Below, in pieces: positions 2,934 to 30,978 of a stretch of 47,801 nt of DNA. The number at the start of each line of letters is the position of its first letter. The stretch's first letter is position 1. The translations under genes were made by a program, and so were the position numbers. The DNA comes from Megasphaera sp. (lineage in GTDB: Bacteria; Bacillota; Negativicutes; Veillonellales; Megasphaeraceae): NCBI GenBank assembly GCA_022486585.1, contig JAKVKI010000017.1, forward strand, positions 1-47,801, read 5' to 3'. The notes under the pieces are model-generated. The model did not search any database. It was not told where the DNA came from and saw nothing but the letters and a program-made list of their open reading frames with translations.

Positions 2934-4337
2934 TTAGTCGATATCATCTTTCAATACGGCTTCTCCACAAACTTCGTTCTTTCTTTCCAAACTTTCTGCC
3001 AACTTTGCTCCCGTTCCGATTGGTGCTGCACCACTCGTTTCTGCCAGGTTCAGCCCCCGTGTTTCAGGTGCCAGGAATATGCAGATGATCAGGCCGAAGA
3101 TCAAGACCCCGCCCATAGCCAGCATCGTCATTTGGATACCATAAGCTTCCAGGAAAGATGGCAATGCAAACGTTCCTAAAATAGGTCCCATACGACTGAT
3201 CATGGTCGATACACCAACACCGACGGCACGAATTTCTGTCGGGAATAATTCATTCGGATATACCCAGTCCAAAACGTTAGGAGGACCCGATGAAATTGCA
3301 TACACAGTGAAACATACGACAATCACCCAAAACGGCGGTTCCGGTATGAGCCCGAGAACGAATAAACCTGCTGCCATGCCGACAAAGCTGCATATAATGA
3401 GCGGCCGCCGATTAAATTTCTCAATGATGATAGCTCCGAAAACGACCCCGACGACAAAGATCAATCCGACAATACTATCGCCTAATAAAAGGTCCCGGCC
3501 TTCACTCAGTTTGATAGCCTTTAACATGGACGGGCCAAAAATATAAATAGCAAACATGGGCAAAACCTGTGTAGCCCAGAAAAGACCTGCAAAAATAACC
3601 CGTTTCAAATAATATGGTTTGAACAATTCACTAACAGATGCATTTTGGACAGCCTTTTCTTCAAACATACTGACATCTGCAGACGGACCATATACATTTC
3701 TAACAATGACCGCCGCTTCTTCGACTCGATTCTTATTCATGAGCCAGCGCGGTGATTCCGGATAGTTCCGTCTTGCCCAAGCCAGCCAAAGCGAAATAAT
3801 AGCCGGGATACCTAGAATAATCTGCCAGTTATATACAGAATCATATACAAGATAGCCGACAACTTCGCCCAAGGTCATCCCAGAAATCCACATGATCATC
3901 ATAATACCAATATTCGTACCACGGCGATGGGCCGGAGAATATTCCGATAAATATGAAGTCGCACTAGTATAGTCCGCACCAATGACCAGACCAAATAAAA
4001 ATCGTATAACGAACAATGCGGTCGTACTTTGGACAAAACATATAGCAATAGATAAAATAGCAAAGGCTAGCGGAATGATAATAAAGGGCTTTTTCCGTCC
4101 TACGGCATCTGATACATTGCCGAATATAGGACCGCCTACGAGAATCCCCATGAGTGCGCCGGCTCCAATTGCACCAGTCCACCAATTATCCAAATGGAGT
4201 AATGGTCCTAACGCAATTAAAGCAGGGCCAATAGAGGCTAAAATATACCCATCGATCAAAGAGCTTAAACCACAATATACGGTTAGTTTATTTATAAATT
4301 TATTAAAATCTGCTTGTTGTCCTGACGAATACACCAA
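2934..4337 (-). CDS. MFS transporter, sugar-porter-like; candidate GABA or 4-hydroxybutyrate carrier
   Basis: 467 residues with about twelve hydrophobic segments in two halves. Sugar/metabolite-porter MFS motifs are visible: a GxxxDxxGRKK-type loop (GNVSDAVGRKKP) after helix 2, a second polar loop after helix 6 (PESPRWLMNKNR), and ELFPTEIRAVGVG near residue 365. The start is TTG at 4337 or the adjacent GTG at 4334, both behind AGGGGCAGG. Its place inside the GABA catabolic operon suggests it imports GABA or moves a pathway acid; that is inferred. Known bacterial GABA importers are mostly APC-family, so the family itself does not fix the substrate. Confidence 0.8.
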   Translation of the reverse strand: MVYSSGQQADFNKFINKLTVYCGLSSLIDGYILASIGPALIALGPLLHLDNWWTGAIGAGALMGILVGGPIFGNVSDAVGRKKPFIIIPLAFAILSIAICFVQSTTALFVIRFLFGLVIGADYTSATSYLSEYSPAHRRGTNIGIMMIMWISGMTLGEVVGYLVYDSVYNWQIILGIPAIISLWLAWARRNYPESPRWLMNKNRVEEAAVIVRNVYGPSADVSMFEEKAVQNASVSELFKPYYLKRVIFAGLFWATQVLPMFAIYIFGPSMLKAIKLSEGRDLLLGDSIVGLIFVVGVVFGAIIIEKFNRRPLIICSFVGMAAGLFVLGLIPEPPFWVIVVCFTVYAISSGPPNVLDWVYPNELFPTEIRAVGVGVSTMISRMGPILGTFALPSFLEAYGIQMTMLAMGGVLIFGLIICIFLAPETRGLNLAETSGAAPIGTGAKLAESLERKNEVCGEAVLKDDID

Positions 4338-4370: not shown

Positions 4371-5672
4371 CTAAAATTTACAATGGAAGCGTTTTTCAAA
4401 TTCAGCAATCAAAGCTGGACGAAAATCAGGATGGGCAATGTTGATCAGAGCGGCAGCCCGCTGTCTCAGCGTTTTTGCTTTCAGAGATGCAATGCCATAT
4501 TCAGTAACAATATAGTCTACATCATTACGAGATGTCGTAATAGCAGCTCCTTCATCAAGAAGCGGCACGATTTTGGAGATTTTTCCCTTACCCGTTGTCG
4601 CGGACATGGCAATAATAGCTTTCCCGCCCTTCGCCCGCGAAGCACCACGGACAAAATCCACCTGACCGCCGACGCCACTGAACTGGCGGTTACCTATCAT
4701 TTCAGCATTGACCTGACCCATGAGGTCGACTTGCATAGCCGAATTAATGGAAATAATATTATCGATTTTAGCAACGACAAAGGGATCATTCGTATAATCT
4801 ACAGGCTTCATTTCTACATCGGGATTATTATTGACGAAATCATATAATTTTTTAGTTCCCATTAAGAAACATGAAACAAATTTACCAGTATCAATGGTCT
4901 TCTTCTTATTGGTCACAACACCTTTATTCGCCAAGTCGACAACGCCATCAGAAAACATTTCCGAGTGGATGCCCAAATCTTTTTTATCCCCAAGGAAGGA
5001 TAACACTGCATCCGGAATCGCACCGATACCTAATTGCAACGTATCACCATCATGAATCAATGAAGCGACGTAGCCGCCAATTTTCTTTTCAAGATCGCCG
5101 ATTTTCGGTGGCTGCAATTCAATCAACGGTTCATCTTTTTCTACGATATAATCAATATCGTCAAGATGGATACTGTTCCCATAGGTACGCGGCATGTTTT
5201 TATTGATTTGAGCGATGACAAGTTTGGCTGCCGATGCAGCAGGCTGGGTATAGTCAACAGAAATACCAAAGGAACAATTACCTTGTTCATCTGGTTCACT
5301 CAGTTGAAGAAATACTACATCTACTGGAAGAAGGCCTTCCCGGAAAAACTTAGGCGCTTCATGGAAGAAGCACGGTGTATAATCAGCTCTGCCTTCTTCT
5401 ACTGCTTTACGGGTAGAACCGCCGACGAACAATGCATTGTGACGGAAATGTTTTTCCATCCCTGGCTGGCAATAGGGTGCTGTCCCCATGGCCACCATGT
5501 GCATGATCGTGACCTGTTCCAGCCGGTCAGCCTGATTGACCAATTCAGTCGTCAGGCATTGGGATTCACCGCACGCATGCGTGAATACGATATTGTCTCC
5601 GGATTTCACATGTTGGACTGCTTCTTCTACCGAAACGATTTTATGAGCATATTCTTTTTTCCAATCTTTCAA
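4371..5672 (-). CDS. abfT: 4-hydroxybutyrate CoA-transferase
   Basis: 433 residues, acetyl-CoA hydrolase/transferase family. It transfers CoA from acetyl-CoA (or butyryl-CoA) to 4-hydroxybutyrate. The predicted catalytic glutamate is Glu238 in GIHSEMFSDG, the same position as in the characterised Clostridium aminobutyricum enzyme. The C-terminal part carries GGQVDFVRGA and the VTEYGIASLKAKTLRQRA segment typical of the family. The start is TTG at 5672 with AGTAGGTG upstream. It lies directly after abfD, separated by a stem-loop, and supplies AbfD with its substrate. The Cat1/Cat2 family also includes succinyl- and propionyl-CoA transferases, but the neighbours make 4-hydroxybutyrate the best call. 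Confidence 0.92.
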   Translation of the reverse strand: MKDWKKEYAHKIVSVEEAVQHVKSGDNIVFTHACGESQCLTTELVNQADRLEQVTIMHMVAMGTAPYCQPGMEKHFRHNALFVGGSTRKAVEEGRADYTPCFFHEAPKFFREGLLPVDVVFLQLSEPDEQGNCSFGISVDYTQPAASAAKLVIAQINKNMPRTYGNSIHLDDIDYIVEKDEPLIELQPPKIGDLEKKIGGYVASLIHDGDTLQLGIGAIPDAVLSFLGDKKDLGIHSEMFSDGVVDLANKGVVTNKKKTIDTGKFVSCFLMGTKKLYDFVNNNPDVEMKPVDYTNDPFVVAKIDNIISINSAMQVDLMGQVNAEMIGNRQFSGVGGQVDFVRGASRAKGGKAIIAMSATTGKGKISKIVPLLDEGAAITTSRNDVDYIVTEYGIASLKAKTLRQRAAALINIAHPDFRPALIAEFEKRFHCKF

Positions 5673-5788: not shown

Positions 5789-7240
5789 TTATTCTTCAAT
5801 ATGAGCAATCGCTTTGGCAAGTTTCTTTTTCATGCCCAAGTTGCCCTGGCGAGAAATCATGATGCGCTGTGCCTGCGGCGAGCCAGCACCATGCATGGAT
5901 TCTGTACGATACCCAACAGCAGCCGTGCCGAGGCTAAGGTTTTCAATGAGGCGTAAGATTTTGAGGCGGTTTTCTGTAGAAACGACACCAACGCCACGAA
6001 GATATTTATCAACATAAGGTCCCAATTTCGGATCCTTGAGGTCTTTTTCAGACGGTGCTGTTACCATGAGACCGCCGGCAATATCTTCAGCGAGACGAAC
6101 GATTTCGTAGGGGAAACGAGTAACATTCTGTTTGCAGACATTAGCCAGCAACAAGTTGATGATGAAGTTTCCTGATTCAGTTTGTGTGCCTAAGGCAGAG
6201 CAAGCGATGCCGCAAGCAAAAAGGGTTTCATTGAGATGCTGCATTTCGATGATTTTATCTTTAACGTGGGAAGCTTTCGGGCAGCCATTATAATCAGCAG
6301 CTACAGCAGCAGCACCGATAAGTACGTCACCTACGCCAACTTTACAACCACCATAGGACTGACGATGATAGCCGGCAAAGCGTTCTACTAAGGAACCAGC
6401 AAATTCATATTCGCCATCCATGAAGATGCGGTCGTTCGGAATGAATACGTTATCAAAAATGACCAGCGCTTCAGTACCGCCGAAGGTCGGGTTGCCTGTA
6501 TCCATCGGAGCGCCTTCCATCTTACGCGTATCGCAAGACTGACGGCCGACGATCATGAAGATACCTTTAGCATCAGTCGGGCAGGCAAAGGAAACAGCAT
6601 AATCTTTATCATCTTCACCCATAGAAATCGTCGGCATAACGATAACTTCATGGGAGTTGATGAAGCCAGTCTGATGCGCTTTGGCACCACGAACAACAAT
6701 ACCATCTGCACGACGTTCTACAACATGAAGATACAAATCCGGATCCTGTTGAGCATGTGGTGCCAGGCCGCGGTCACCTTTAGGGTCTGTCATAGCTCCA
6801 TCAACAGTAAGATCTCGTTCTTGAACATATTTCAAGAAATTCATGAAATTTTCATGATAATGCGTGCCGTATTTTTTATCTGTATCATATGTTACGGAAA
6901 ATTCAGCATTAAAGGAGTCCATGCCTACGCAGCGCTGGAAACATGCCGCTGTTTTCTGTCCGCAGAGACGTTGCATTTTTACTTTGTTCATCAGATCCTG
7001 TGTGCTCTGATGAATATGTGTAAAACGGTTAATCCGTTCACCTGTATACGGCGATACAACGGTCATCAAATCCTGATATTCCGGCATTTGTGCCAAATCA
7101 TAGGTCATTTTTACAGAATTCATAGACGGCCGAAGAATCGGGTCTTCAGCAGGACATTCGATTTTTTTACCGAACATATACACCTGCAAATTCATTTTTT
7201 TCATGCTTTCAACGTACTGTTCACCTGTCATTAATGCCAT
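5789..7240 (-). CDS. abfD: 4-hydroxybutyryl-CoA dehydratase / vinylacetyl-CoA isomerase
   Basis: 483 residues, close to the known clostridial enzyme along its length. It is a [4Fe-4S] and FAD enzyme that dehydrates 4-hydroxybutyryl-CoA to crotonyl-CoA by a ketyl-radical mechanism. The cluster ligands are all present: Cys100 and Cys104 in AACFQRCVG, and the His and Cys of GYHRQSYGGCKVG with the same H-x6-C spacing as the characterised protein. The motif MTDPKGDRGLAP, also strongly conserved, is intact. The ATG at 7240 has AAAGGATTG upstream. It is the first gene of the GABA operon, about 70 bases from the predicted start of a sigma-54 promoter. Product and pathway are near certain. Confidence 0.97.
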   Translation of the reverse strand: MALMTGEQYVESMKKMNLQVYMFGKKIECPAEDPILRPSMNSVKMTYDLAQMPEYQDLMTVVSPYTGERINRFTHIHQSTQDLMNKVKMQRLCGQKTAACFQRCVGMDSFNAEFSVTYDTDKKYGTHYHENFMNFLKYVQERDLTVDGAMTDPKGDRGLAPHAQQDPDLYLHVVERRADGIVVRGAKAHQTGFINSHEVIVMPTISMGEDDKDYAVSFACPTDAKGIFMIVGRQSCDTRKMEGAPMDTGNPTFGGTEALVIFDNVFIPNDRIFMDGEYEFAGSLVERFAGYHRQSYGGCKVGVGDVLIGAAAVAADYNGCPKASHVKDKIIEMQHLNETLFACGIACSALGTQTESGNFIINLLLANVCKQNVTRFPYEIVRLAEDIAGGLMVTAPSEKDLKDPKLGPYVDKYLRGVGVVSTENRLKILRLIENLSLGTAAVGYRTESMHGAGSPQAQRIMISRQGNLGMKKKLAKAIAHIEE

Positions 7241-7323
7241 AATTAATCAATCCTTTCTACTAAAGAAGCTGTAAGTTATACTGTACTATTTCACACATTT
7301 GTTGTTGCTTGACTGAATATACA

Positions 7324-7339
7324 GCAAAATTTGTGCCAA
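7324..7339 (-). promoter_or_regulatory. Sigma-54 (-24/-12) promoter of the GABA operon
   Basis: On the minus strand the sequence reads TTGGCAC-A-N4-TTGC, matching the consensus TTGGCACR-N4-TTGCW with exact GG-to-GC spacing. Transcription would start near 7312, about 70 bases before the abfD start codon. The window also encodes RpoN and a sigma-54 activator, which supports the call. Confidence 0.88.
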
Positions 7340-7512: not shown

Positions 7513-7530
7513 TGTTGCATTATTGCAACA
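7513..7530. promoter_or_regulatory. Predicted enhancer site 1 (TGTTGCA palindrome)
   Basis: TGTTGCA and TGCAACA separated by four bases. It lies about 180 bases from each sigma-54 promoter, a normal distance for an upstream activating sequence. The probable ligand is the PAS-AAA+ activator encoded at 14685-16124; that assignment is inferred. Confidence 0.72.
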
Positions 7531-7700: not shown

Positions 7701-7717
7701 TTGGCACGTTTTTTGCT
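7701..7717 (+). promoter_or_regulatory. Sigma-54 (-24/-12) promoter of the LuxC/LuxE-type operon
   Basis: TTGGCACG-N4-TTGCT, an exact match to the sigma-54 consensus with correct spacing. Transcription should start near 7728, about 38 bases before the TTG start of the first gene. The short gaps and overlaps downstream suggest the transcript runs to at least 16124. Confidence 0.92.
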
Positions 7718-7765: not shown

Positions 7766-8065
7766 TTGGATACATTAATGATAAAAAAAATCGAAGCCGT
7801 CTTAAATGAGGATGTCCGACCATCCCTGGCACAGCATCACGGTAATGTCGTCCTTGTCGATTATGCAGATCAAGTTCTTCGCATCCGCCTGACCGGCACC
7901 TGCAGTGGCTGTCCGTCAGCACAAGTAACGACAGAGAGCCTCATTACAGCCAAACTACAGGAAAAGCTTCCGCAAATACAAGATGTCATCTTGCTGACCG
8001 GTGTCAGCGATGATCTCATCGCCCAAGCGAAAGCTATCCTCCATTCCCATCACGCACCGGAGTAG
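7766..8065 (+). CDS. NifU-like C-terminal domain protein
   Basis: 99 residues, about one NifU C-terminal (Nfu) domain. The domain's CxxC is at Cys46 and Cys49 in TGTCSGCPSA. Nfu proteins hold and deliver iron-sulfur clusters. The start is TTG at 7766 with AAGGAG eight bases upstream; the later ATG at 7778 has no suitable site. It is the first gene after the plus-strand sigma-54 promoter and ends five bases before the next gene. Why an Nfu protein leads this operon is unclear. It might serve the Cys-rich protein that follows or the [4Fe-4S] AbfD made from the divergent promoter; both are inferences. Confidence 0.85.
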   Translation: MDTLMIKKIEAVLNEDVRPSLAQHHGNVVLVDYADQVLRIRLTGTCSGCPSAQVTTESLITAKLQEKLPQIQDVILLTGVSDDLIAQAKAILHSHHAPE

Positions 8066-8069
8066 TCCT

Positions 8070-8774
8070 ATGAATATCGGCATTAAATATTGCGGCGGGT
8101 GTAATCCCCGCTATGATCGCACCCGTGAAGTACAACGATTCATAACGTGCTTCCCCCAACACACCTTTACATATACACCGGAACAAACTGTATGTGATGT
8201 ATGCCTTCTGGTCTGTGGCTGCCAAACGGCTTGCGCTGAAAGCTCCGGTCTCGCCGTAAAAGAGATCAAAACCCTTTGCAGTCCCCGAGACTTCACGAAC
8301 TGTGCCGCCTGGCTGCAAAACCAGACCAGCGCTGCCACTGCTCCTTTGAAAAAGGCACTCCGCATCGGCGATACGGCTTCTATGACAAAAACGTTTTCAA
8401 CTGCTGACATTGCCGATTTTGCCCGCCTTACTGGTGATTATGGAAAATTACATACTGATGCCGTCTTTGCGACTGCTCACGGCTTTGGCAGGACCGTTGT
8501 CCACGGCGTGCTGACCGGCAGCTTGATTTCATCAGTCATGGGCATGACACTTCCCGGTGATGGTACTATTTTGATGGATGAAAACCTGAAATTTTTGCTC
8601 CCCGTATATGCTGGAGACAGTATTACAGCTACAGTCACCTTGAAACACATTACCGAACGAAAACGATGGTATATTGGCGAACTATACGGAGTCTGCCATA
8701 ACCAAAACAACGACATGGTCGTCGAAGGCACGTGTCGTCAATTACTTACAAAAGATTTATTTACTATTATGTAA
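8070..8774 (+). CDS. Cys-rich domain fused to MaoC-like hydratase
   Basis: 234 residues with two parts. Residues 1-90 hold ten cysteines, including KYCGGCNPRYDR near the start and CDVCLLVCGCQTACA at 42-56, which could bind a metal or cluster. Residues 100-230 are a MaoC/(R)-specific enoyl hydratase hot-dog domain, with the catalytic pair Asp123 and His128 in TGDYGKLHTD and a downstream VVHGVLTGSLISS. The usual Asn-Pro between Asp and His is replaced, so substrate or activity may differ. The ATG at 8070 has GGAG seven bases before it; the longer reading frame from 8001 only overlaps the preceding gene. The role of the N-terminal part is unknown to me. Confidence 0.8.
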   Translation: MNIGIKYCGGCNPRYDRTREVQRFITCFPQHTFTYTPEQTVCDVCLLVCGCQTACAESSGLAVKEIKTLCSPRDFTNCAAWLQNQTSAATAPLKKALRIGDTASMTKTFSTADIADFARLTGDYGKLHTDAVFATAHGFGRTVVHGVLTGSLISSVMGMTLPGDGTILMDENLKFLLPVYAGDSITATVTLKHITERKRWYIGELYGVCHNQNNDMVVEGTCRQLLTKDLFTIM

Positions 8775-8807
8775 TTTTGTTGCTATAGAAAGGATATGTA
8801 TTATATT

Positions 8808-9044
8808 ATGACTAATTTAGAAAAATATAACAATGCTATGATCACAAATTTTAAAGTAACAGCCGCTGAACTTCCAGGATTAAAATATCGTTCTATTAAA
8901 TTATGGGATTCCATGGGCCATATGACCTTAATGGAAGATTTAGAAGACATGTTCGACATTTCAATTGATACACCTGATGTATTATCATTTAGTTCCTACG
9001 AAAAAGGTCTGGATATTCTCCGCAAGTACGGCGTAGATTTATAA
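8808..9044 (+). CDS. Acyl carrier protein
   Basis: 78 residues with the acyl carrier fold pattern: LWDSMGHMTLMEDLEDMF, where Ser35 in the DSM motif is the predicted phosphopantetheine attachment site, followed by an acidic helix 2. It would carry an acyl group as a thioester between the ligase, hydratase and reductase encoded beside it. The start is placed at the ATG at 8808; an in-frame ATG at 8796 sits only one or two bases after AAAGGA and is less likely, although the spacing to 8808 is long. It differs from the housekeeping AcpP motif (GADSLDTVEL), so it is probably a dedicated carrier. Confidence 0.82.
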   Translation: MTNLEKYNNAMITNFKVTAAELPGLKYRSIKLWDSMGHMTLMEDLEDMFDISIDTPDVLSFSSYEKGLDILRKYGVDL

Positions 9045-9046
9045 GC

Positions 9047-9709
9047 ATGTCTTATATTCCCGTCTGCTTGACAGACCCCCTCACGCAGAGTAATTGTTAT
9101 ATCATTACATCAGGCCGTCATGCCCTGCTCATTGATCCGAACGACGGCCCAATGCTCTCTTCGTATATAGAAGAACATGATTTGCAGCCAGAAACGGTTC
9201 TCCTTACACATGAACATTGTGACCACATTGCTGGTCTCAATCTGCTGCGCCGTTCGTATCCCCTGCAAGTCATTGCAAGCCGCCCTTGCAGTGACGGCTT
9301 GCAATCTGCAAAACGCAACATGTCGCGTATCATGGAAACGTATCTGTACTTCAAAAGTAACGGCACCCTTCGTGTATCCTACCCCAGATTCGTCTGTAAA
9401 GCTGCCGACCTCACTTTTGAGGAAACGTTCTGTTATGATTGGTACGGTTTTCATTTCACACTTATCGCAGCACCGGGGCACACGCCGGGAAGCACTTGCA
9501 TTATTTTAGACAGAGATATTCTTTTTTCTGGTGATTATTTTATTCCCGGTGAAGAAGTCGTTACGCGCCTGCCCGGCAGCGATGATACAGCCTATGAAAG
9601 CACAGGGAAAGCGATTTTACGCACGCTGCCAGTTCCTATATGGACCTATCCTGGTCACGGTGCTCCCTTTATGTTGACAGAGGATGTGAAACACAAGTAT
9701 GGATTATAG
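9047..9709 (+). CDS. Metallo-beta-lactamase-fold hydrolase
   Basis: 220 residues, complete MBL fold. The metal ligands are His55, His57, Asp59 and His60 in THEHCDH, His145 in APGHTPGST, Asp163 in FSGDYF and His204 in YPGHGAP, as in glyoxalase II-type hydrolases. Acting on a thioester, it could release acyl groups from the carrier protein, as MBL-fold thioesterases do in some polyketide pathways; this is inferred from context. The ATG at 9047 follows the ACP stop by two bases with no clear ribosome binding site, implying translational coupling. Its end overlaps the next gene by 11 bases. Confidence 0.85.
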   Translation: MSYIPVCLTDPLTQSNCYIITSGRHALLIDPNDGPMLSSYIEEHDLQPETVLLTHEHCDHIAGLNLLRRSYPLQVIASRPCSDGLQSAKRNMSRIMETYLYFKSNGTLRVSYPRFVCKAADLTFEETFCYDWYGFHFTLIAAPGHTPGSTCIILDRDILFSGDYFIPGEEVVTRLPGSDDTAYESTGKAILRTLPVPIWTYPGHGAPFMLTEDVKHKYGL

Positions 9710-10769
9710 CCAGTATTTCTCCGCTTCCCCCTATGGCTGGACACAAGCTGAAAAGGAACAAACATATATTTCCTGCCTCAACGAATTGACTGCCTATCAT
9801 CACGAACACTGTGCACCTTATGGCAAGGCACTAGACGCCTGGGGGTATGCTGCTGCAACTGCAACGGAATTATCCCAAATCCCGATGATTCCAATTACAC
9901 TTTTCAAACAGCTGGATTTAACAAGCATTCCTCAGCAAAATATTTTTAAAATCATCACCTCCTCCGGAACCTCTGGCCAGGCTGTTTCCCATATCTATCT
10001 CGATGCGGCAACAGCACAAAACCAGCAGCTGGCTCTATATGCCATATGGAAGGATTTCTTTGGTCCCCGCCGCCTGCCAATGCTGATCATCGACTCACCG
10101 GCAGTATTTCATGACCGGGCACAATTCAATGCCCGCGGTGCTGCCATCCTTGGCTTTTCCTTGTTTGCTAAGCGAAAATATTATGCCTTAACAGACGACA
10201 TGGAGCTCAACATTTCTGCCTTGGATACAGTGGCCGCACTGGCAGCTAAAGGGCCTGTCATCATTTTCGGCTTCACCTTTATGATTTGGAAGTATTTCTG
10301 CCAGGCCTTAGCTCAACAGGGAACCTCTTTTGATTTTTCAACGGCCTTGGTCCTTCATGGCGGCGGCTGGAAAAAGTTACAAAACCAGGCTGTTTCCCCG
10401 GCTGCCTTCAATACCCGCCTGCAGGAACAATTCCATATTTCCCATGTGCATAATTATTATGGTATGGCTGAACAAACTGGCTGCATCTACATGGAATGTG
10501 AATATGGTCATCTCCATGCCAGCATCTTCTCTGATATCCTCATCCGGGACCCTGCTGATTTTTCCTGCTGTCCCATCGGTACGTCTGGTATCATCCAGGT
10601 AATGTCCCCTATTGCTGCATCCTATCCGGGACATTCGATTTTGACAGAAGATATGGGGACACTCCTGGGGACCGATGACTGTCCTTGCGGCCGCAAGGGC
10701 CGCTATTTCCGTATAGACGGTCGGATTCCTAAAGCTGAAATAAGGGGGTGCAGTGATACCCATGAATGA
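9699..10769 (+). CDS. LuxE-like acyl-protein synthetase
   Basis: 356 residues, LuxE/PaaK-related adenylate-forming family. The nucleotide loop SSGTSGQAVSH is near residue 90. The C-terminus has CPCGRKGRYFRIDGR followed by AEIRGCSDT, where Cys351 corresponds to the cysteine that takes up the acyl group in luminescence LuxE. In luminous bacteria LuxE activates a fatty acid and hands it to LuxC for reduction to aldehyde. It is encoded directly before the LuxC-like reductase and overlaps it, as expected for partners. No luxAB luciferase is present, so the aldehyde must serve something else. Confidence 0.88.
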   Translation: MDYSQYFSASPYGWTQAEKEQTYISCLNELTAYHHEHCAPYGKALDAWGYAAATATELSQIPMIPITLFKQLDLTSIPQQNIFKIITSSGTSGQAVSHIYLDAATAQNQQLALYAIWKDFFGPRRLPMLIIDSPAVFHDRAQFNARGAAILGFSLFAKRKYYALTDDMELNISALDTVAALAAKGPVIIFGFTFMIWKYFCQALAQQGTSFDFSTALVLHGGGWKKLQNQAVSPAAFNTRLQEQFHISHVHNYYGMAEQTGCIYMECEYGHLHASIFSDILIRDPADFSCCPIGTSGIIQVMSPIAASYPGHSILTEDMGTLLGTDDCPCGRKGRYFRIDGRIPKAEIRGCSDTHE

Positions 10770-11949
10770 ATCGTACACACTATTAGCCGGCACCATGCCT
10801 GATTCCATCCACAGGCTGCCACCTTTTTCGCCTGTAGTCATGTCCTTTTTGCAGCGTCTGTCCCAAGAATTACTGCATGACCCCATTACAGTACAAGACC
10901 CTTCTTGGGCAACATTTGGATTTTGGCTGCGACAAAAACAGCTGGCACGACTGAAACAAACCGTTTCTTTTTTAGATTCTCGCTTGGGGCGCGGTCTCGT
11001 GTTCCATATCACGCCGACAAATATGCCCATTATGTTTGCCTACAGCCTGGCTATTTCTCTGCTTGCCGGTAACAGCAACCTCGTACGCCTGTCACCACGC
11101 ATCACAGCAGCGACAGCCCCACTATGCAATCTCATTGATTCTATTTGGAAACAACCTGCCTTTACCCAGCTATATGAAACGAATGCCCTCATAACCTATG
11201 ATGCGATGCAGAAGGAGCTGACCGATACGTATACCGCTCGTTGTGACGGCCGCATTATTTGGGGCGGAAATCGATCCATTCAGGCAATCCGGCAATCACC
11301 GCTGCCACCGCAAGCAGTGGAGCTCGTCTTTGCTGACCGCTATTCCCTTGCTGTGTTTGACAGTGCTGCCATTATCTCCTGTTCCGATCATGATATACAA
11401 CAATGGGCCCACCGTTTTTATAATGACACCTATGAAGCTGACCAAAATGCCTGTTCCAGTCCAAAACTCATTGTTTGGCTCACGGCTTCCGCCAAGGACT
11501 ATGCCGCTGCCCAAACACGCTGGTGGCATGCCGTAGCCGCAGAAAGCCGTGCCTATGATTTACAGCCCATTAAAGTAAGCGAAAAATATGGCAATGCCTG
11601 GTATTGGGCTATGACCTGCCCGGAACTGCAATCCATCAGTCCTATAACAAATTCTCTTTATATCTATCATCTATCGTCCCTGCCTGACGACATAACGACG
11701 CTATCTGGTAAATTCGGTCAGTTCTTTCAAATTGCTATGCCGTCTTTACCCTCCCTATTGCCGTATATAACCAAAAAAGTCCAAACTATCTCTACCCTCG
11801 GCATATCCGCGGATACCTTACGTTCACAGCTTATCGCCTATGGTGCCGCTGGCGCAGACCGCATCGTCCCCGTAGGGCAGGCACTCCATATGGATGTCAT
11901 CTGGGATGGTACCCATATGATTGAATCGTTATCTCGCATAATCCGTTAG
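10762..11949 (+). CDS. LuxC-like acyl reductase
   Basis: 395 residues, LuxC family (aldehyde-dehydrogenase-like fold). The active-site cysteine is in DQNACSSPKLIVW, and the nucleotide-binding loop region HITPTNMPIMFAYSLAISLLAGNSNLVRLS (near residue 90) is intact. It should reduce an enzyme- or carrier-bound acyl group to an aldehyde using NADPH. The start is placed at the ATG at 10762, inside the end of the LuxE-like gene; a GTG at 10753 is also possible. The chain length or nature of the acyl group cannot be told from the sequence. Confidence 0.88.
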   Translation: MNESYTLLAGTMPDSIHRLPPFSPVVMSFLQRLSQELLHDPITVQDPSWATFGFWLRQKQLARLKQTVSFLDSRLGRGLVFHITPTNMPIMFAYSLAISLLAGNSNLVRLSPRITAATAPLCNLIDSIWKQPAFTQLYETNALITYDAMQKELTDTYTARCDGRIIWGGNRSIQAIRQSPLPPQAVELVFADRYSLAVFDSAAIISCSDHDIQQWAHRFYNDTYEADQNACSSPKLIVWLTASAKDYAAAQTRWWHAVAAESRAYDLQPIKVSEKYGNAWYWAMTCPELQSISPITNSLYIYHLSSLPDDITTLSGKFGQFFQIAMPSLPSLLPYITKKVQTISTLGISADTLRSQLIAYGAAGADRIVPVGQALHMDVIWDGTHMIESLSRIIR

Positions 11950-11960
11950 GAGGTCTTATC

Positions 11961-13370
11961 GTGAATTTTTTTGATAAGAATCGCAACTATGAAGACCACC
12001 CCTTATTCATAACATCGCACGGCCATCGCCTCTCTTATGGTGACTGGTACCGCCACAGCGACGCACTGCATTCACTCATAGCCCCTCGTTCTCTGGCAGC
12101 CATTCTGTGCAGCAATACCATCGGCTCAGCCGTATCTTATTTATGCTGCCTGCAAAACCACATCGTGCCCATCCTCATCGACAATCAGCTGGATGAAGAC
12201 CTGAAGCAACGACTGCTGCACCTCTATAAGCCCAATTATATCATTGCGCCATCTGGTAAAAACAACGCCCATCCTGTAGTATATGATATAGAAGACTATG
12301 GTGTATATCCCTATTCAAACCAGCATCATGAACTTTATTCCGAGCTGGCGTTGCTATTGACTACCTCAGGCAGTACGGGCAGTCCCAAATTAGTTCGACA
12401 AAGCTATGCTAATCTTCAGGCCAACGCCGCTTCTATCGCTCAGTATTTGCAATTGACAGCAACGCACCGGCCTGTTTCCTCACTGCCCATGCATTATACC
12501 TTTGGCCTGTCCGTTATAAACAGCCATGTTCTCTGCGGTGCTGCAGAATATCTTACAGACGACACGGTCTTCGACCCGTCCTTTTGGGATTTCTGCAAAC
12601 ATGAACACATAACCTCTATTGCCGGCGTCCCCTTTACGTATGAATGTCTGAAACGGCTTCGCTTCACGACGATGGACCTGCCAGACCTGACCTTGATGCT
12701 TCAAGCTGGCGGGAAATTATCCAAACCCTTACAAAAAGAATATGGTGAATATGCCCAAAAAACAGGCAAAAAATTTATTGTTATGTACGGCCAGACAGAA
12801 GCAACAGCTCGCATGTCGTATTTGCCTGCTGCGGACTGTCTGCGGAAAATCGACAGTATCGGTATCGCTATTCCCGGTGGTACGTTCCATATCATAGAGA
12901 CCGATGGCAGTGAAATCCATACAGCCAATACGATTGGTGAACTCTGCTATGAAGGTCCTAACGTTACATTAGGCTATGCCACCCATCCAGACGACCTGTC
13001 GCTCGGTGACACCCGGCATGGCCGTCTCATGACCGGCGATATGGCTTACTATGACGAAGATGGTTTCTATTATATTACTGGCCGTAAAAAACGTTTCATT
13101 AAAGTCATGGGAAAACGCCTGAACATGGATGAAATAGAACAATTGCTGAAAAATAACGACAGTACCTATGATTTTGCCTGTGTCGGCCTTGATGATGCCG
13201 TGTGGATATTCACGACAGCACCTTGCACGAAATTTGCTGCCATAGAAGACTTCCTTACGAAAAAAATCAGCCTGCATCCCTCCTGTCTCACGCTCCGCAG
13301 CATAGATTCCATTCCCAAGAACACGTCTGGTAAAACTCAATATCCTGCCTTACAGTCACTGGTAAACTAG
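11961..13370 (+). CDS. AMP-forming acyl ligase (ANL superfamily)
   Basis: 469 residues with all the main adenylation motifs: TTSGSTGSPK near residue 135, YGQTEATARMSY near 275, TGDMAYYDEDGFYYITGRKKR near 355, and the C-terminal NTSGKTQY lysine loop near 460. It adenylates a carboxylic acid and passes it to a thiol, here plausibly the carrier protein encoded upstream. The GTG at 11961 has TTAGGAGG seven bases before it. It is short for an acyl-CoA synthetase and resembles free-standing adenylation domains. The substrate cannot be predicted by eye. Confidence 0.87.
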   Translation: MNFFDKNRNYEDHPLFITSHGHRLSYGDWYRHSDALHSLIAPRSLAAILCSNTIGSAVSYLCCLQNHIVPILIDNQLDEDLKQRLLHLYKPNYIIAPSGKNNAHPVVYDIEDYGVYPYSNQHHELYSELALLLTTSGSTGSPKLVRQSYANLQANAASIAQYLQLTATHRPVSSLPMHYTFGLSVINSHVLCGAAEYLTDDTVFDPSFWDFCKHEHITSIAGVPFTYECLKRLRFTTMDLPDLTLMLQAGGKLSKPLQKEYGEYAQKTGKKFIVMYGQTEATARMSYLPAADCLRKIDSIGIAIPGGTFHIIETDGSEIHTANTIGELCYEGPNVTLGYATHPDDLSLGDTRHGRLMTGDMAYYDEDGFYYITGRKKRFIKVMGKRLNMDEIEQLLKNNDSTYDFACVGLDDAVWIFTTAPCTKFAAIEDFLTKKISLHPSCLTLRSIDSIPKNTSGKTQYPALQSLVN

Positions 13371-13381
13371 GTGGTATACAG

Positions 13382-14653
13382 ATGAATATGAAACCTGAAT
13401 TAACACAGGACCAACAACAGCACATGTCAGCTGCACAAATTCAATCTCTCCATATCCTGGCTATGCCAGCCGATGCATTGCAGGAATTATTGCAGAAAGA
13501 ATCCGAAGAAAATCCCTTCATGGAATATCAGCCTTCCTCCTCTGCTGGCGGTGCGGAAGAATATTTGAATTTTGTCGCCGCACCAGAAAAGGATACTGTC
13601 AAAAATTTTATTTTAGAACAATTGAACCCGCAGCAATTTTCAAAACCCCATTGGGCCTTACTGTCTTATTTGGCAGCTTGTGTCGACGACAGCGGCTTTC
13701 TCACCATAACAGAACAAGACCTGACAGCAAAATTTCCATTGCCGCCAGGTCTGTTCGCATCGTGCTTGCAGACCTTACAAGGGCTTCATCCTGTTGGTAT
13801 TTGTGCCTATGATATACGAGAATGTCTAAAATTACAGCTCCAGCATAACCATAAACTTTCACCACTGCTGACGACGCTTATTGATGACCATTTATCGGAT
13901 ATTGCTGCTAATAACCTGAACTCACTATGCCACCTGCTGCACTCGTCAAAAGCTGAGATCATGACCGCTATCAACATGATCAAAAAGCTGAATCCCTCCC
14001 CGTTAAAAGGTCTTTTTGAAAAAACAGATACGTATGTCGTACCTGACGTCATTATTCGTCTCACTCCTGAAGGCCATGAAACGATTCTAAACGATTCATG
14101 GGTCGCCTCATATTCCCTTAGCGATTACTACATCAACATGATGCAAACTGCAACGGATCCAGATGTAAAATCATATTTCCAGCAAAAATACAACCGCGCA
14201 TATATGCTGATCCATAACATCGAACAGCGCCGTAAAACACTGATCACCTTGACAAATGCTATATGGAACTGGCAATATACATATATACAGCAACACCATG
14301 TCACCCGTCCTATGACCTTGAAAAACATTGCCGACCTGACAGGCCTGCATATATCAACGATCAGCCGTTCTACAAAGGACAAATATGTACAGACACCGTG
14401 GAGTACTGTATCCTTCAAATCGTTATTTCAGAGTCCGCTGCTTCAAAAAGGAAAAGAAGGACTTTGCAAAAACAGCATCAAGAAAGCGCTCCGCACCCTT
14501 ATCGATACTGAGCGTCCTGACGCGCCGTATAGTGATCTGCAACTTGTAGAGCTCTTGCAAAGCCGCCATGCCATGACCGTATCCCGCCGGGCCATCCAAA
14601 AATACCGGAATGCCCTGTGCATTCCCAATTCCTATGAGCGAAAGCATTCATGA
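13382..14653 (+). CDS. rpoN: RNA polymerase sigma-54 factor
   Basis: 423 residues. It has the Gln/Leu-rich activator-interacting region at the start (LTQDQQQHMSAAQIQSLHIL), a core-binding middle, and a C-terminal RpoN box at about residues 401-410 in the form SRRAIQKYRN (consensus ARRTVAKYRE). Sigma-54 recognises -24/-12 promoters such as the two at 7324 and 7701. The gene starts 11 bases after the AMP ligase and lies before its likely activator, so it is probably co-transcribed from the 7701 promoter and feeds back on itself. Whether it is the only rpoN of the genome cannot be seen. Confidence 0.93.
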   Translation: MNMKPELTQDQQQHMSAAQIQSLHILAMPADALQELLQKESEENPFMEYQPSSSAGGAEEYLNFVAAPEKDTVKNFILEQLNPQQFSKPHWALLSYLAACVDDSGFLTITEQDLTAKFPLPPGLFASCLQTLQGLHPVGICAYDIRECLKLQLQHNHKLSPLLTTLIDDHLSDIAANNLNSLCHLLHSSKAEIMTAINMIKKLNPSPLKGLFEKTDTYVVPDVIIRLTPEGHETILNDSWVASYSLSDYYINMMQTATDPDVKSYFQQKYNRAYMLIHNIEQRRKTLITLTNAIWNWQYTYIQQHHVTRPMTLKNIADLTGLHISTISRSTKDKYVQTPWSTVSFKSLFQSPLLQKGKEGLCKNSIKKALRTLIDTERPDAPYSDLQLVELLQSRHAMTVSRRAIQKYRNALCIPNSYERKHS

Positions 14654-14684: not shown

Positions 14685-16124
14685 ATGACATATCGACAAA
14701 TCTTTTCTACTGTCAGAGAAGCTGCAGAACGCTTGGGCGCCATTATTGAACACTCCTTTGATGGTATCTATATTACAGATAGTCATGCTAATACTATACT
14801 CATCAATCATGCCTATGAAGACATTACGGGGCTGCGCAAAAAGGACGTCATCGGTAAAAACATGTCCTCACTGGTCCAAAATAAAATCATTTCCACATCT
14901 GGCTCCTTGCGGGTCATCCAAACAAAAAAGCCAGTCACCTTGCAGCAACAGTTCAAAACCGGTAAAGAAGCGCTTATTACGAGCTCTCCTATTTTTGATG
15001 AAGAAGGACGACTGGTCATGGTCGTTACTAATGTCCGTGACTTAACCGAAATATACAGCCTAAAAGAAGCCATTCAGAAAAAAGATGATGACCTCGAACG
15101 ATTCCGCCTGAAATTAGAACACCTGAGTGCCCCCTTGAACGAAGAAGAAATCATTTTCAATGACGATACATCGCTAGGCGCCCTTCTCCTGGCTAATCGA
15201 GTGGCGCCTATGGATACGACAGTACTGCTCCTCGGGGAGACCGGTGTCGGTAAAGAAGTGATGGCCCGCTATATTTATCAGCACAGTCTTCGTTCTAAAA
15301 ACAGTTTCATCAAAGTAAACTGTGGTGCTATTCCGGAAAGCCTTATTGAAAGCGAATTATTCGGTTATGAAAGCGGCGCCTTCACCGGTGCCAGTCGTTC
15401 CGGTAAGATTGGCTTGTTCGAATTAGCAAATAAGGGTACGTTATTTCTCGATGAAATAGGTGAATTGCCCAAAGATATGCAGGTCAAACTTCTTCGAGCC
15501 CTGCAAGAACAAGAAATCATGCGTGTTGGCGGAACAAAACCTATTAAAATTGATATCCGCATTATTGCAGCTACGAATCGCTCGCTAAAAGACATGGTCA
15601 AGAGCGGGCAATTCCGAGAAGATTTGTACTATCGCCTTACGGTCTTCCCTGTATCCATCCCGCCATTACGTTCTCGCAAAAAAGACATTACGCCACTGGC
15701 TATTTCATTCCTGACCAAGCTGAATCAAAAATATAACTTCAATAAATATTTCACCGATATTTCCATTCAGCTGCTGAACGAATACAAATGGCCCGGCAAT
15801 ATCCGTGAGCTGAAAAACATCGTAGAACGCGCTATCATTATCAGCTCTGGCAATGAAATCACACCAGAAGATCTGCACTTATTCCAACAAACCAAACCCA
15901 TTATCATCGTAAAAGAAAAACCTGAAGAACCACGCCCGGTTCCTGCTATACCTGCAGAATTGCCTGATGACCTCAATCAGGCCCTGGCGTCTATTGAATA
16001 TGATTACCTCGTCCGTGCCTACAACCAATACGGCAATGTCCGCGATGCCGCCCAAGCCATCGGTATTACTGCATCGACGTTCGTACGGAAACGAAAAAAA
16101 TATGAAGACACGAAGAGAAATTGA
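14685..16124 (+). CDS. PAS-AAA+ sigma-54-dependent activator
   Basis: 479 residues in three parts. A PAS domain occupies about 15-125; the AAA+ domain about 155-390 has Walker A GETGVGKE (184-191), the sigma-54 contact loop GAFTGA (231-236) and Walker B TLFLDEIGEL; a TyrR-type helix-turn-helix lies at about 440-479 (VRDAAQAIGITASTFVRKRKK). There is no receiver domain, so it probably senses a small molecule through PAS. It follows rpoN by 31 bases. It is the natural candidate to bind the TGTTGCA palindromes at 7513-7570 and drive both the GABA operon and its own; that target is inferred from position. Confidence 0.93.
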   Translation: MTYRQIFSTVREAAERLGAIIEHSFDGIYITDSHANTILINHAYEDITGLRKKDVIGKNMSSLVQNKIISTSGSLRVIQTKKPVTLQQQFKTGKEALITSSPIFDEEGRLVMVVTNVRDLTEIYSLKEAIQKKDDDLERFRLKLEHLSAPLNEEEIIFNDDTSLGALLLANRVAPMDTTVLLLGETGVGKEVMARYIYQHSLRSKNSFIKVNCGAIPESLIESELFGYESGAFTGASRSGKIGLFELANKGTLFLDEIGELPKDMQVKLLRALQEQEIMRVGGTKPIKIDIRIIAATNRSLKDMVKSGQFREDLYYRLTVFPVSIPPLRSRKKDITPLAISFLTKLNQKYNFNKYFTDISIQLLNEYKWPGNIRELKNIVERAIIISSGNEITPEDLHLFQQTKPIIIVKEKPEEPRPVPAIPAELPDDLNQALASIEYDYLVRAYNQYGNVRDAAQAIGITASTFVRKRKKYEDTKRN

Positions 16125-16149: not shown

Positions 16150-16178
16150 AAAAGAGACTGCTAAAGGAGGTGTTTTCC

Positions 16179-16544
16179 ATGGCTAGACCACAACGGTGCC
16201 GCCGCGTTTGCGCCCTTCCTAAATCGGGAGTATTTGCGCCATCCGGATGTTCTGCTGATACGGAAATAGTAACAATGAGCGTCGACGAATATGAAGTCAT
16301 CCGCCTTATTGACTGGGTCGGTCTGACACAAGAACAATGTGCTGCTCAGATCCACGTATCACGTACGACTGTAACCGGCATCTATGATACGGCCCGGCAC
16401 AAACTGGCCGATGCCCTTGTTCATGGAAAACGCTTGCTCATCGAAGGCGGCCCTATCCAAGTTTGTGAACATGCCGGCACGTGCAGCCATCCATGCTGCC
16501 AAACCGGAAATGCAACTATAAAGGAGAATGATATCCATGAGTGA
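16179..16544 (+). CDS. DUF134 family predicted DNA-binding protein
   Basis: 121 residues. It begins MARPQRCRRVC and contains the family core TMSVDEYEVIRLIDWVGLTQEQCA, followed by a helix-turn-helix-like segment (VSRTTVTGIYDTARHKLADAL), similar to a sigma-70 region 4 HTH. The C-terminus is Cys/His-rich (CEHAGTCSHPCC) and could bind metal. The ATG at 16179 has AAAGGAGG eight bases upstream; the GTG at 16170 is part of that site. It overlaps the following mrp gene by 8 bases. DUF134 genes often neighbour Mrp-type ATPases in anaerobes, but their function is not established. Confidence 0.85.
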   Translation: MARPQRCRRVCALPKSGVFAPSGCSADTEIVTMSVDEYEVIRLIDWVGLTQEQCAAQIHVSRTTVTGIYDTARHKLADALVHGKRLLIEGGPIQVCEHAGTCSHPCCQTGNATIKENDIHE

Positions 16545-17382
16545 ACCTGAAAATTGTACCCACGACTGTTCTAGCTGCGGCAGCAGCTGCTCCAGCCGTA
16601 CCCAGCCCCAAAGCCTCCAAGAAGCACCCCATGAAGGTACCCATGTCAAACACGTCATTGCTATTGTCAGTGGCAAAGGCGGCGTTGGCAAATCTCTTGT
16701 TACGTCTTTGATGGCTGTACAGATGCAACGCCGCGGTTTCAAGACAGCTGTTCTTGACGCCGATATTACAGGTCCGTCCATCCCGAAAGTTTTCGGTATT
16801 ACTGATCATGCCACAGGCGACCAAAATGGCATCAATCCCGTTGATACGAACACGGGCATTAAGGTCATGTCCATGAATCTGCTTCTGGAAGATCCAGGAG
16901 CTCCGGTCGTATGGCGCGGCCCGGTCATTGCCGGGGCTGTCAAACAGTTCTGGACAGATGTACTTTGGGGCGACATTGATTACATGTTCGTTGACATGCC
17001 TCCAGGAACAGGCGACGTACCTCTGACGGTATTCCAATCCTTGCCGGTAGATGGCATCCTCATCGTTACATCACCACAGGAATTAGTTTCCATGATCGTC
17101 GAAAAAGCCTATAATATGTCAGAAATGCTGAGCATACCGGTCCTTGGCCTTGTAGAAAACATGAGCTATTTCGAATGTCCTCATTGCCATGAAAAAGTAG
17201 AAATTTTCGGCAAGAGCCATGTCGAAGAATCGGCTGCTAAATTTGAAATCCCTCATACCGCTAAACTGCCTATCGATCCAAAATTCGCAGAACTCTGCGA
17301 TAAGGGCGCAATCGAAACGTACCAGTCGGACAATCTCAGCAATACTGCCGAATATCTGGAAAGTATTTTTAACCAAAAATAA
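16537..17382 (+). CDS. mrp: Mrp/Nbp35-type iron-sulfur carrier ATPase
   Basis: 281 residues, P-loop NTPase of the Mrp/ApbC/Nbp35 family. The deviant Walker A SGKGGVGKS is at 45-53, DADITGPSIPK follows, and a CPHCHEK motif provides the CxxC that bridges a [4Fe-4S] cluster in the dimer. The N-terminus adds a Cys-rich tail (CTHDCSSCGSSC) like eukaryotic Nbp35. Such proteins assemble and pass on iron-sulfur clusters. The ATG at 16537 has AAGGAG ten bases before it; the ATG at 16528 is too close to that site. It is coupled to the DUF134 gene and followed by a strong terminator. Confidence 0.92.
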   Translation: MSEPENCTHDCSSCGSSCSSRTQPQSLQEAPHEGTHVKHVIAIVSGKGGVGKSLVTSLMAVQMQRRGFKTAVLDADITGPSIPKVFGITDHATGDQNGINPVDTNTGIKVMSMNLLLEDPGAPVVWRGPVIAGAVKQFWTDVLWGDIDYMFVDMPPGTGDVPLTVFQSLPVDGILIVTSPQELVSMIVEKAYNMSEMLSIPVLGLVENMSYFECPHCHEKVEIFGKSHVEESAAKFEIPHTAKLPIDPKFAELCDKGAIETYQSDNLSNTAEYLESIFNQK

Positions 17383-30066: not shown

Positions 30067-30237
30067 AATTACGCTCCTTCATAAACTTTGGTTCTATTTA
30101 ATTACTATAATACGTTTATTATATTTTTTATTATTTAACCTGTCAATTGCTTTGCCGGCAGGTTATTATTTATAATTGGCAAGTTTTATCGTATCAAAAT
30201 AAATTTTAATGCTTATTTCCCAATTATTTCATCTATT

Positions 30238-30267
30238 TTGCGATATGTTGCGATATAATGATATAAT
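30238..30267 (+). promoter_or_regulatory. Promoter of the tetrapyrrole operon
   Basis: TTGCGA, an 18-base spacer and TATAAT. A second overlapping TTGCGATATAAT makes a short direct repeat (TTGCGATAT twice, ten bases apart), which might also be a regulator site. Confidence 0.5.
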
Positions 30268-30316
30268 AATAAGGTATTATATTGTAAAATATTTTTTTGC
30301 AAAGGAACTCGTAATT

Positions 30317-30964
30317 ATGTATCCAATCAATCTGACAATAGAGCATAAACCGTGTCTAATCATCGGTGGCGGGCCTGTGGCCGCTAAAAAAGCGGACAGT
30401 CTCCTTACGGCTGGTGCCGATGTTACTATTATTTCACCTGTTTTATGCCAAGAACTGGAAACACTGCACCAACAAAAACCTTTTTGTTGGCAATCCCGCT
30501 TGTATCAAACCGGTGACGAAGCAGGATATTTTCTTGTTATCTGCGCCTGCGGGGATGAATCAGTCAATCAAGCTGTATGGGCAGCAGCGTCTGCTAACAA
30601 CCAGCTTCTCAATGTATGCGATGAACCTGATTTATGTAACTTTACAGCCCCTTCAGTATTACACCGCGGTGATCTACAGATCAGTATTGCTACAAACGGA
30701 AAATCCCCAGCTTTGTCACGCTGGCTTTGTCAGCGCCTGAGCGAAGAAATAAGTCCGGCTTATGGTCCATGGCTGGAAGCCTTGGGCCGCATTCGAAAAG
30801 AAGCAAAAAAACAACTGCCGACCAGCCTGGATCGTCAAAATTTTTGGCGCACTGTCTTGACAGCTGATCTCATCACCCTGGCTATTTCAGGTAATTTAGA
30901 ACAGGCCGAAGAATTACTGAAACAACAATTACAGCAATTCGCCAGCACGTACTTGCCCCGATAA
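30317..30964 (+). CDS. Precorrin-2 dehydrogenase / sirohydrochlorin ferrochelatase
   Basis: 215 residues, CysG N-terminal/Met8-like family. The NAD-binding start CLIIGGGPVAAKKADSLLTAGADVT is followed by NVCDEPDLCNFTAPSVLHRGDLQISIATNGKSPALS, the family's central motif, and a helical C-terminus. It oxidises precorrin-2 to sirohydrochlorin and may insert iron. The ATG at 30317 has AAAGGA ten bases upstream; the frame back to 30209 crosses the promoter. It is the first gene of a four-gene operon for sirohaem or cobalamin precursors. Confidence 0.9.
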   Translation: MYPINLTIEHKPCLIIGGGPVAAKKADSLLTAGADVTIISPVLCQELETLHQQKPFCWQSRLYQTGDEAGYFLVICACGDESVNQAVWAAASANNQLLNVCDEPDLCNFTAPSVLHRGDLQISIATNGKSPALSRWLCQRLSEEISPAYGPWLEALGRIRKEAKKQLPTSLDRQNFWRTVLTADLITLAISGNLEQAEELLKQQLQQFASTYLPR

Positions 30965-30978
30965 AGGAGATCCACGCT

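Follow-up and report, generated by a model that had tools for sequence, protein, structure and literature searches.

We analyzed a 47,801-nucleotide stretch of Megasphaera DNA (Negativicutes; contig JAKVKI010000017.1, positions 1–47,801; hereafter the window), taken from a 1.9-Mb genome of 47 contigs that is 83% complete, and focused on an operon for LuxE- and LuxC-type acyl-reducing enzymes with its own acyl carrier protein (ACP) and ligase. A first-pass annotation, made from the sequence alone, had claimed seven adjacent genes here, and all seven open reading frames (ORFs) are indeed present and intact on the plus strand, spaced −17 to +21 bases from their neighbours. They encode an Nfu-type Fe–S protein with a NifU C-terminal domain (7766–8065; PF01106, 80.9 bits); a cysteine-rich domain (KYCGGC...CGC...C, from the alignment) fused to a MaoC-like domain (8070–8774; PF01575, 56.2 bits), with its start taken as the ATG at 8070, the mechanical ORF opening at the GTG at 8001; a dedicated ACP (8796–9044; alternative start ATG 8808) with a WDSxGHM serine; a metallo-β-lactamase (MBL)-fold hydrolase that is GloB-like by its nearest solved structures and a candidate thioesterase (9047–9709; PF00753, 72 bits); a LuxE-type acyl-protein synthetase (9699–10769; PF04443, 169 bits); a LuxC-type acyl reductase (10753–11949; PF05893, 107 bits); and an AMP-forming acyl ligase (11961–13370; PF00501, 137 bits). 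The scores of the NifU, MaoC, MBL, LuxE, LuxC and AMP-binding domains all exceed the Pfam cut-offs.

The operon is longer than had been seen: it continues, after a gap of 11 bases, through rpoN, which encodes sigma-54 (13382–14653, plus strand; TIGR02395, 312.6 bits, over the cut-off), and, after a further 31 bases, through a PrdR-like PAS sigma-54 activator (14685–16124, plus strand; PF00158, 233 bits; NF041552, 410 bits, below the cut-off of 795), where it ends at 16124. No rpoN was found in the corresponding operon of Megasphaera hutchinsoni (L017). Here and in Megasphaera cerevisiae, the activator gene is followed by two more (16170–17382), one for a DUF134 protein and the other for a P-loop protein of Mrp-like type; they probably lie outside the unit, as they are not present in all relatives.

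The reductase operon stands back to back with an operon of the GABA (4-aminobutyrate)/4-hydroxybutyrate type that the first-pass annotation had not seen. Its first gene, on the minus strand like the rest, lies 525 bases from the Nfu gene and encodes the 4-hydroxybutyryl-CoA dehydratase AbfD (5789–7240; 785 bits to PDB 1u8v); the residues we take to be its Fe–S ligands fall in identical stretches of the 1u8v alignment. It is followed by genes for a CoA-transferase of the 4-hydroxybutyrate type (4371–5672; 546 bits to PDB 3eh7), an MFS transporter (2934–4337; PF00083, 195 bits), a 4-aminobutyrate aminotransferase-like protein (1501–2865; TIGR00700, 473.6 bits, below the cut-off of 506.65) and an iron-containing alcohol dehydrogenase (Fe-ADH; 296–1447), a probable 4-hydroxybutyrate dehydrogenase. 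The last of these exceeded no NCBIfam cut-off and was identified by similarity to ‘Cvir-Hbd2’ only (PDB 30sm, 477 bits). With this qualification, the dehydratase, CoA-transferase and dehydrogenase of the 4-hydroxybutyrate branch are all present. In several Megasphaera loci, the CoA-transferase gene is followed by well-conserved genes for a permease-like protein (a weak Xan_ur_permease match, below the cut-off) and a 204-residue protein with no Pfam match (L012, 15979–18075).

Each of the two operons is preceded by a sigma-54 promoter motif, TGGCACGTTTTTTGCT (7702–7717, plus strand; 12 of 12 consensus letters) on the reductase side and TGGCACAAATTTTGCT (7323–7338, minus strand; 11 of 12) on the AbfD side, and between them lies a palindrome, TGTTGCA-N4-TGCAACA (7513–7530), a putative activator site. 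In 13 short intergenic regions from this and related loci, a sigma-54 site was present on the AbfD side in every case, and on the module side too in nine, including three Lachnospiraceae loci; in L012, L133, L015 and L016 it was found on the AbfD side alone. The p values for the sigma-54 sites (0 to 0.0033) come from 300 simple letter shuffles. The 13 regions contain near relatives (L054/L058 and L012/L015/L133), and L051, where AbfD lies about 6 kb from Nfu, was omitted. All 13 also contained the palindrome TGTTNCA-N4-TGNAACA at 10 or more of 12 letters, against 0.01–0.08 expected per region, a result that is partly circular, since some of these regions had themselves supplied the pattern, read off by eye. 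As a less circular test, the exact palindrome was sought in nine genomes: it occurred at five places in three of them, all at this locus (two inside the cysteine-rich gene, in G002 and G016), and nowhere in the other six, and a reversed control pattern had no match in the nine. The operon's own activator may bind the palindrome, and both operons would be turned on by this activator and the operon's own sigma-54; the reductase genes are probably switched on together with the butyrate-forming pathway.

The first-pass annotation had staked its reading on joint conservation in related genomes, and the genes are indeed conserved together. LuxC relatives occurred in 9 of 60 relatives, the window's own genome included (8 of 15 in the genus and one of the two from the sister genus), with the nearest named loci in M. 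cerevisiae, M. hutchinsoni and a Megasphaera metagenome-assembled genome (MAG). Wherever a locus was long enough for both sides to be read, in the window and seven others, the module and AbfD point away from each other; the same arrangement is spread over two contigs in G003, and G336, a genome of another Negativicutes family, carries it as well. Among 380 Negativicutes genomes, LuxE scores fell into two groups, one of 10 genomes with at least 642 bits and one of 33 with at most 531. AbfD was present in all 10 of the former (88–100% identity), in 1 of the 33 with the other LuxE and in 42 of the 337 without LuxE, with presence defined as any match at E 0.001, so that distant homologues are counted. 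The window's own genome, 83% complete, had no SucD-like match. Within the family, such matches above 40% identity were found only in G010 (51%, away from the locus) and G015 (48%), the probe (L118, 635–1993) being itself SucD only by place. Four near-complete genomes, G002, G006, G007 and G013 (99% complete), have the module and AbfD, together with only distant matches to the SucD-like probe (≤26%) and likewise to the aminotransferase (≤38%).

We then scanned genome contigs with the LuxE alignment; the best 80 loci were listed, and the locus counts given here are not counts of all loci. Loci were annotated by BLAST against the window proteins and a few others. Three loci (L048, L049 and L050, from the same genomes as L010, L014 and L017) were dropped before the tree and the counts, and L133 is without LuxE. 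The listed loci split in two: one set has an AbfD/CoA-transferase/Nfu/cysteine-rich context, and the other an SDR (short-chain dehydrogenase/reductase)/split transketolase/NeuB/DegT context. The AbfD-type set was found in Lachnospiraceae (including Lacrimispora), in Oscillospiraceae, in one Clostridium and in two MAGs labelled as Paenibacillaceae. AbfD or the cysteine-rich gene lies near LuxE in 25 of the loci analysed, hereafter the linked loci, with AbfD itself in the fetched stretch of 22 of them; in the whole fetched stretches of the 60 others, AbfD, Nfu, CoA-transferase and cysteine-rich genes were all absent. Since this labelling itself uses the AbfD and cysteine-rich genes, the independent evidence is its agreement with the LuxE tree of 87 rows, in which a 100/99 branch (bootstrap not settled) holds all 25 linked rows together with L013 and L072, whose contigs are too short to reveal their context and which are counted on neither side. 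In seven loci, LuxE frames longer than 500 residues were trimmed to 370 for the tree.

Neighbour identities were borne out for the transketolase halves, SDR, NeuB, DegT, crotonase, acyl-CoA dehydrogenase, EtfB-like protein, 3-hydroxybutyryl-CoA dehydrogenase, pyruvate:ferredoxin oxidoreductase (PFOR) and HpaI/GarL-like aldolase; thiolase and EtfA were named by eye. Among the linked loci, L053 has AbfD, Nfu, cysteine-rich, GldA, CoA-transferase and reductase genes all in one orientation, L060 and L061 have an Fe-ADH gene immediately 3′ of the ligase gene, and L065 (10001–12277) encodes a 759-residue fusion of LuxE with LuxC (PF04443, PF05893), with a crotonase, a 3-hydroxybutyryl-CoA dehydrogenase and a thiolase-like gene lying 3′ of the fusion. 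LuxE frames of 770–805 residues also occur in six loci of the other set (L083, L087, L104, L109, L110 and L126). In L119 (5769–12290) and 23 other loci, ACP–ligase–LuxE–LuxC cassettes with SDR and split transketolase lie in surface-glycan-like clusters, where a LuxC aldehyde may be used to make a branched or chain-extended sugar by a route so far unrecognised. Transketolases are aldehyde-using enzymes, and we count the presence of the two transketolase halves beside this core toward aldehyde formation.

The first-pass annotation had treated all seven genes as one pathway, a view that the analysis did not support. Sets of AbfD, Nfu, cysteine-rich and GldA genes occur with no adjoining lux genes in L130 (7897–11750; G001) and L131 (306–11359; G009), whose genomes have no LuxE match, and in L132 (7404–15883), beside a second AbfD copy of G011, a genome whose lux module lies elsewhere; in L134 (G015), the cysteine-rich gene lies beside a 56% AbfD homologue. 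Because Nfu and the cysteine-rich protein go with AbfD even where lux genes are missing, the reductase proper consists of the ACP, MBL enzyme, LuxE, LuxC and ligase, and Nfu and the cysteine-rich protein probably serve the Fe–S enzyme AbfD. There is, however, a counter-case: L129 (10727–11758; G015) carries Nfu and the cysteine-rich/MaoC fusion in a fetched stretch of 19.9 kb that has neither AbfD nor lux genes. In M. hutchinsoni (L017, 12681–13382), the cysteine-rich domain is kept while the MaoC half is degenerate and has lost its D/H motif; no MaoC domain was detected in L053, L060 and L061. The MBL enzyme was present in 16 of the 25 linked loci; searches of L065 and the eight Lacrimispora-type loci did not find it, so it is not essential. 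The L131 set also has PFOR (TIGR02176), an HpaI/GarL-like aldolase and, by eye, an acyl-CoA dehydrogenase-like gene; these neighbours suggest another entry into the same branch, and those of L132 look alike by eye.

The catalytic residues expected of these enzymes, which the first-pass annotation had already pointed out, are conserved across relatives of the ligase, ACP, LuxE, LuxC and MBL enzyme. The ligase lysine (Lys458) is kept in 79 of 80 rows, the ACP serine (Ser39 of WDSxGHM) in 69 of 69, the SSGT motif and Cys351 of LuxE, which was aligned to PDB 7xc6_E, in 87 of 87, Cys234 of LuxC in 80 of 80 and the HxHxDH residues of the MBL enzyme in 22 of 23. The ACP scored below the Pfam cut-off (20.5 against 32 bits); its AlphaFold model (mean pLDDT, 95.6) has four helices, the second of which opens with the serine, and resembles solved ACPs at a template modelling (TM) score of about 0.7–0.85, with a best E value of 0.0023 and none at 0.001 or better. 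For LuxC, the best solved match of the model is Photobacterium phosphoreum LuxC (7xc6_A; TM score, 0.70), with aldehyde dehydrogenases next. The intact residues and the LuxC match support acid activation and reduction of a thioester to an aldehyde, so the annotated acid-activating, carrier-bearing and probably aldehyde-forming set gains support. The adenylating, carrier and reductase domains sit in separate ORFs, not in one chain. No ACP was called in the linked loci L051 and L058; its initial absence from L010, L011 and L012 was an artefact of the ORF overlap rule, as a separate search found it there. A phosphopantetheinyl transferase (PF01648) was absent from the window's own 83%-complete genome, whereas 14 of the 17 family genomes have one, including 11 of the 11 good ones; this absence may reflect genome incompleteness. 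A role in luminescence, dismissed already in the first-pass annotation, was rejected here too, as none of the 17 family genomes, the window's own (83% complete) among them, has a member of the luciferase family (PF00296).

Taken together, the five genes may encode a split, carrier-dependent and ATP-driven carboxylic acid reductase that supplies an aldehyde to the 4-hydroxybutyrate branch, a reading that we favour tentatively. We place its product in this branch because of the linkage to AbfD and the dehydrogenases present. Also in favour are the agreement with the LuxE tree, the signs of shared control, the single orientation of the genes in L053, the position of the Fe-ADH gene in L060 and L061, the LuxE–LuxC fusion of L065 and the four near-complete genomes with module and AbfD but only distant SucD-like and aminotransferase matches. 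The ligase would adenylate a short acid and load it onto the ACP, and the acyl group would then move to the LuxE cysteine, either directly or via release and re-activation. LuxC, with NAD(P)H, would reduce the acyl group to a free aldehyde, and the MBL enzyme, where present, could serve as a proof-reading or releasing thioesterase. The aldehyde would next be reduced by the Fe-ADH that the partner operon encodes (adh or GldA type), and the resulting hydroxy acid would be converted by the CoA-transferase and AbfD to crotonyl-CoA, for butyrate or acetyl-CoA. That the acid is succinate and the product succinate semialdehyde is possible, if on the unlikely side.

Several observations weigh against this reading. 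In 8 of the 25 linked loci, the fetched stretch includes a gene for an aldehyde dehydrogenase of the CoA-acylating kind, which is SucD-like by its place and scores below every NCBIfam cut-off, and the window has the GABA aminotransferase-like gene; in these loci the aldehyde can thus come from elsewhere, and it is untenable that LuxC alone supplies succinate semialdehyde in every locus. For a fermentation, a step that takes ATP to AMP is expensive, and the energetics speak against a purely catabolic use. It is for these reasons, the SucD-like enzymes, the aminotransferase and the energetics, that we grade succinate no higher. AbfD is absent from the fetched stretches of L060 and L061 (uncut) and of L095 (cut by a contig end), the MaoC half is not explained by the scheme, and 4-hydroxybutyrate may simply be imported.

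Among the alternatives, the best survivor keeps the same reductase and changes its acid: a product of the branch, such as 4-hydroxybutyrate, crotonate, butyrate or caproate, would be reduced toward an alcohol as a reductive outlet. In L060 and L061, the Fe-ADH gene that adjoins the ligase gene, with no AbfD in the fetched stretch, fits such an outlet, as do the SucD-like enzyme already present in 8 of the 25 linked loci and the label of butyrate/butanol synthesis that a 2019 table gives to a Clostridium set (PMC6615313, Table 1). The partner dehydrogenases near the module are, by contrast, of the 4-hydroxybutyrate (Cvir-Hbd2-like) or glycerol dehydrogenase type, and we regard the outlet as unlikely, though worth keeping in view.

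It is improbable that the module runs in reverse, oxidising succinate semialdehyde to acyl-ACP while the ligase or LuxE regains ATP, to balance a GABA fermentation. The facing operon of the window does carry a GABA aminotransferase-like gene, and such ligases can in principle work in either direction; a thioesterase encoded alongside would nevertheless waste the thioester, LuxC and LuxE are known as reductases, and an aminotransferase lies beside the module in only 1 of the 25 linked loci.

We hold out equally little prospect for a set that makes a lipid aldehyde (for example, for plasmalogens, as the first-pass annotation had proposed), a signal or part of a surface glycan. The same core does occur in surface-glycan-like cassettes, both among the listed loci and in Aeromonas (PMC7874193, accessible part). 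Yet a DUF2229 protein of 1433–1463 residues (one frame, 780) is encoded in all 17 family genomes, whether they carry lux genes or not, which disfavours the plasmalogen idea. In its size and domain, this protein matches what we take to be the plasmalogen synthase PlsA. The LuxE proteins here are separated from the glycan types by the 100/99 branch, and the 60 other loci lack AbfD, Nfu, CoA-transferase and cysteine-rich genes. Identity with a surface-glycan cassette, marked by its LuxE group and by transketolase, SDR or NeuB neighbours, was rejected on both the tree and the gene context. Finally, the module could be a helper of AbfD in assembly, repair or detoxification with no part in substrate supply, which its tight linkage to AbfD and the tracking of AbfD by Nfu and the cysteine-rich protein would suit; since LuxE matches are missing from 42 of the 53 Negativicutes genomes that have AbfD matches, AbfD relatives do not need the module, and this is the least probable of the explanations.

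If the carboxylic acid reductase reading is true, Lux-type reductases gain a second setting, in central metabolism, with a testable class of substrates (C4 acids), and an orphan carrier–ligase–reductase set becomes tied to butyrate formation in Megasphaera and Lachnospiraceae. The broader proposal, that at least two classes of anaerobes (the Negativicutes and that of the Lachnospiraceae) use a discrete-subunit, carrier-dependent relative of the Lux reductase to feed a free acid, succinate, into the 4-hydroxybutyrate route with neither CoA nor SucD, as one sigma-54-controlled unit, is more doubtful than its succinate component. A fermentation entry step of this sort was not found described in the literature searched (subscription papers and preprints lay outside its scope). 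M. hutchinsoni, a vaginal species, carries the locus. 4-Hydroxybutyrate (GHB) has been reported as a biomarker of bacterial vaginosis (PMC4585667, accessible part). Elsewhere in the window (30209–34413), translations suggest, by eye, a tetrapyrrole run with siroheme-synthase-like, HemC, CobA/HemD-like and HemB-like genes.

The first-pass annotation knew of no described pathway with this set of genes, which needs one amendment. Table 1 of PMC6615313 has a row for the XanR regulon of Clostridium, governed by a sigma-54 activator, that lists abfD-nifU-hyp-ach-golB and acp-caiC-luxEC under butyrate/butanol synthesis. Beyond the row, the XanR genes appear, in the accessible text of that paper, in one sentence on motif groups. 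The gene set and sigma-54 sites here correspond to it, both having abfD-nifU-hyp-ach with acp-caiC-luxEC under a sigma-54 activator, with hyp as a possible counterpart of the cysteine-rich protein. They differ in that the row names neither an MBL enzyme nor rpoN and gives the function only as butyrate/butanol synthesis; the comparison is one of gene names in the table, not of XanR sequence or site motif. If our reading is true, this unexplained row of a published sigma-54 table becomes functionally testable. It was also the only biological paper found to name both abfD and luxE, and no paper in the literature searched combines 4-hydroxybutyryl-CoA dehydratase with LuxC; in its accessible part, PMC12316311 gives a COG containing AbfD as sigma-54 regulated in Clostridia.

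Other known systems share parts of the set. In the accessible parts of two papers on flagellar glycosylation, Aeromonas islands carry genes for ACP, 3-oxoacyl-ACP reductase, AMP synthetase, luxE and luxC (PMC7874193), and the same core appears in another setting (PMC4875605). The Aeromonas islands are thus alike in their core of ACP, ligase, LuxE and LuxC, and unlike in their surface glycan context; comparable cassettes among the fetched loci have an SDR, often with a split transketolase, and fall on the far side of the branch in the LuxE tree, which does not include the Aeromonas proteins themselves. The luminous LuxC/LuxE reductase (PDB 7xc6) has the same adenylating motif and C-terminal acyl cysteine in LuxE and the same fold and cysteine in LuxC, whereas the present system has no luciferase in the family, an ACP and ligase of its own and a fermentation context. 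Where the present operon has an MBL enzyme, the luminous operon carries LuxD. The pathway from 4-aminobutyrate or succinate to butyrate likewise has AbfD, CoA-transferase and, here, a likely dehydrogenase. The 4-hydroxybutyrate route of Clostridium kluyveri uses SucD, whereas the Megasphaera genome, at 83% completeness, shows no SucD-like match and has the Lux-type module, whether in place of such an enzyme or alongside it. Carboxylic acid reductase (CAR) is a single chain of adenylation, carrier and reductase domains (A-PCP-R), and combines adenylation, a carrier and reduction by NAD(P)H in one scheme, as the present set would; here, however, these functions are divided among separate proteins, and the reductase has an aldehyde dehydrogenase fold rather than that of an SDR.

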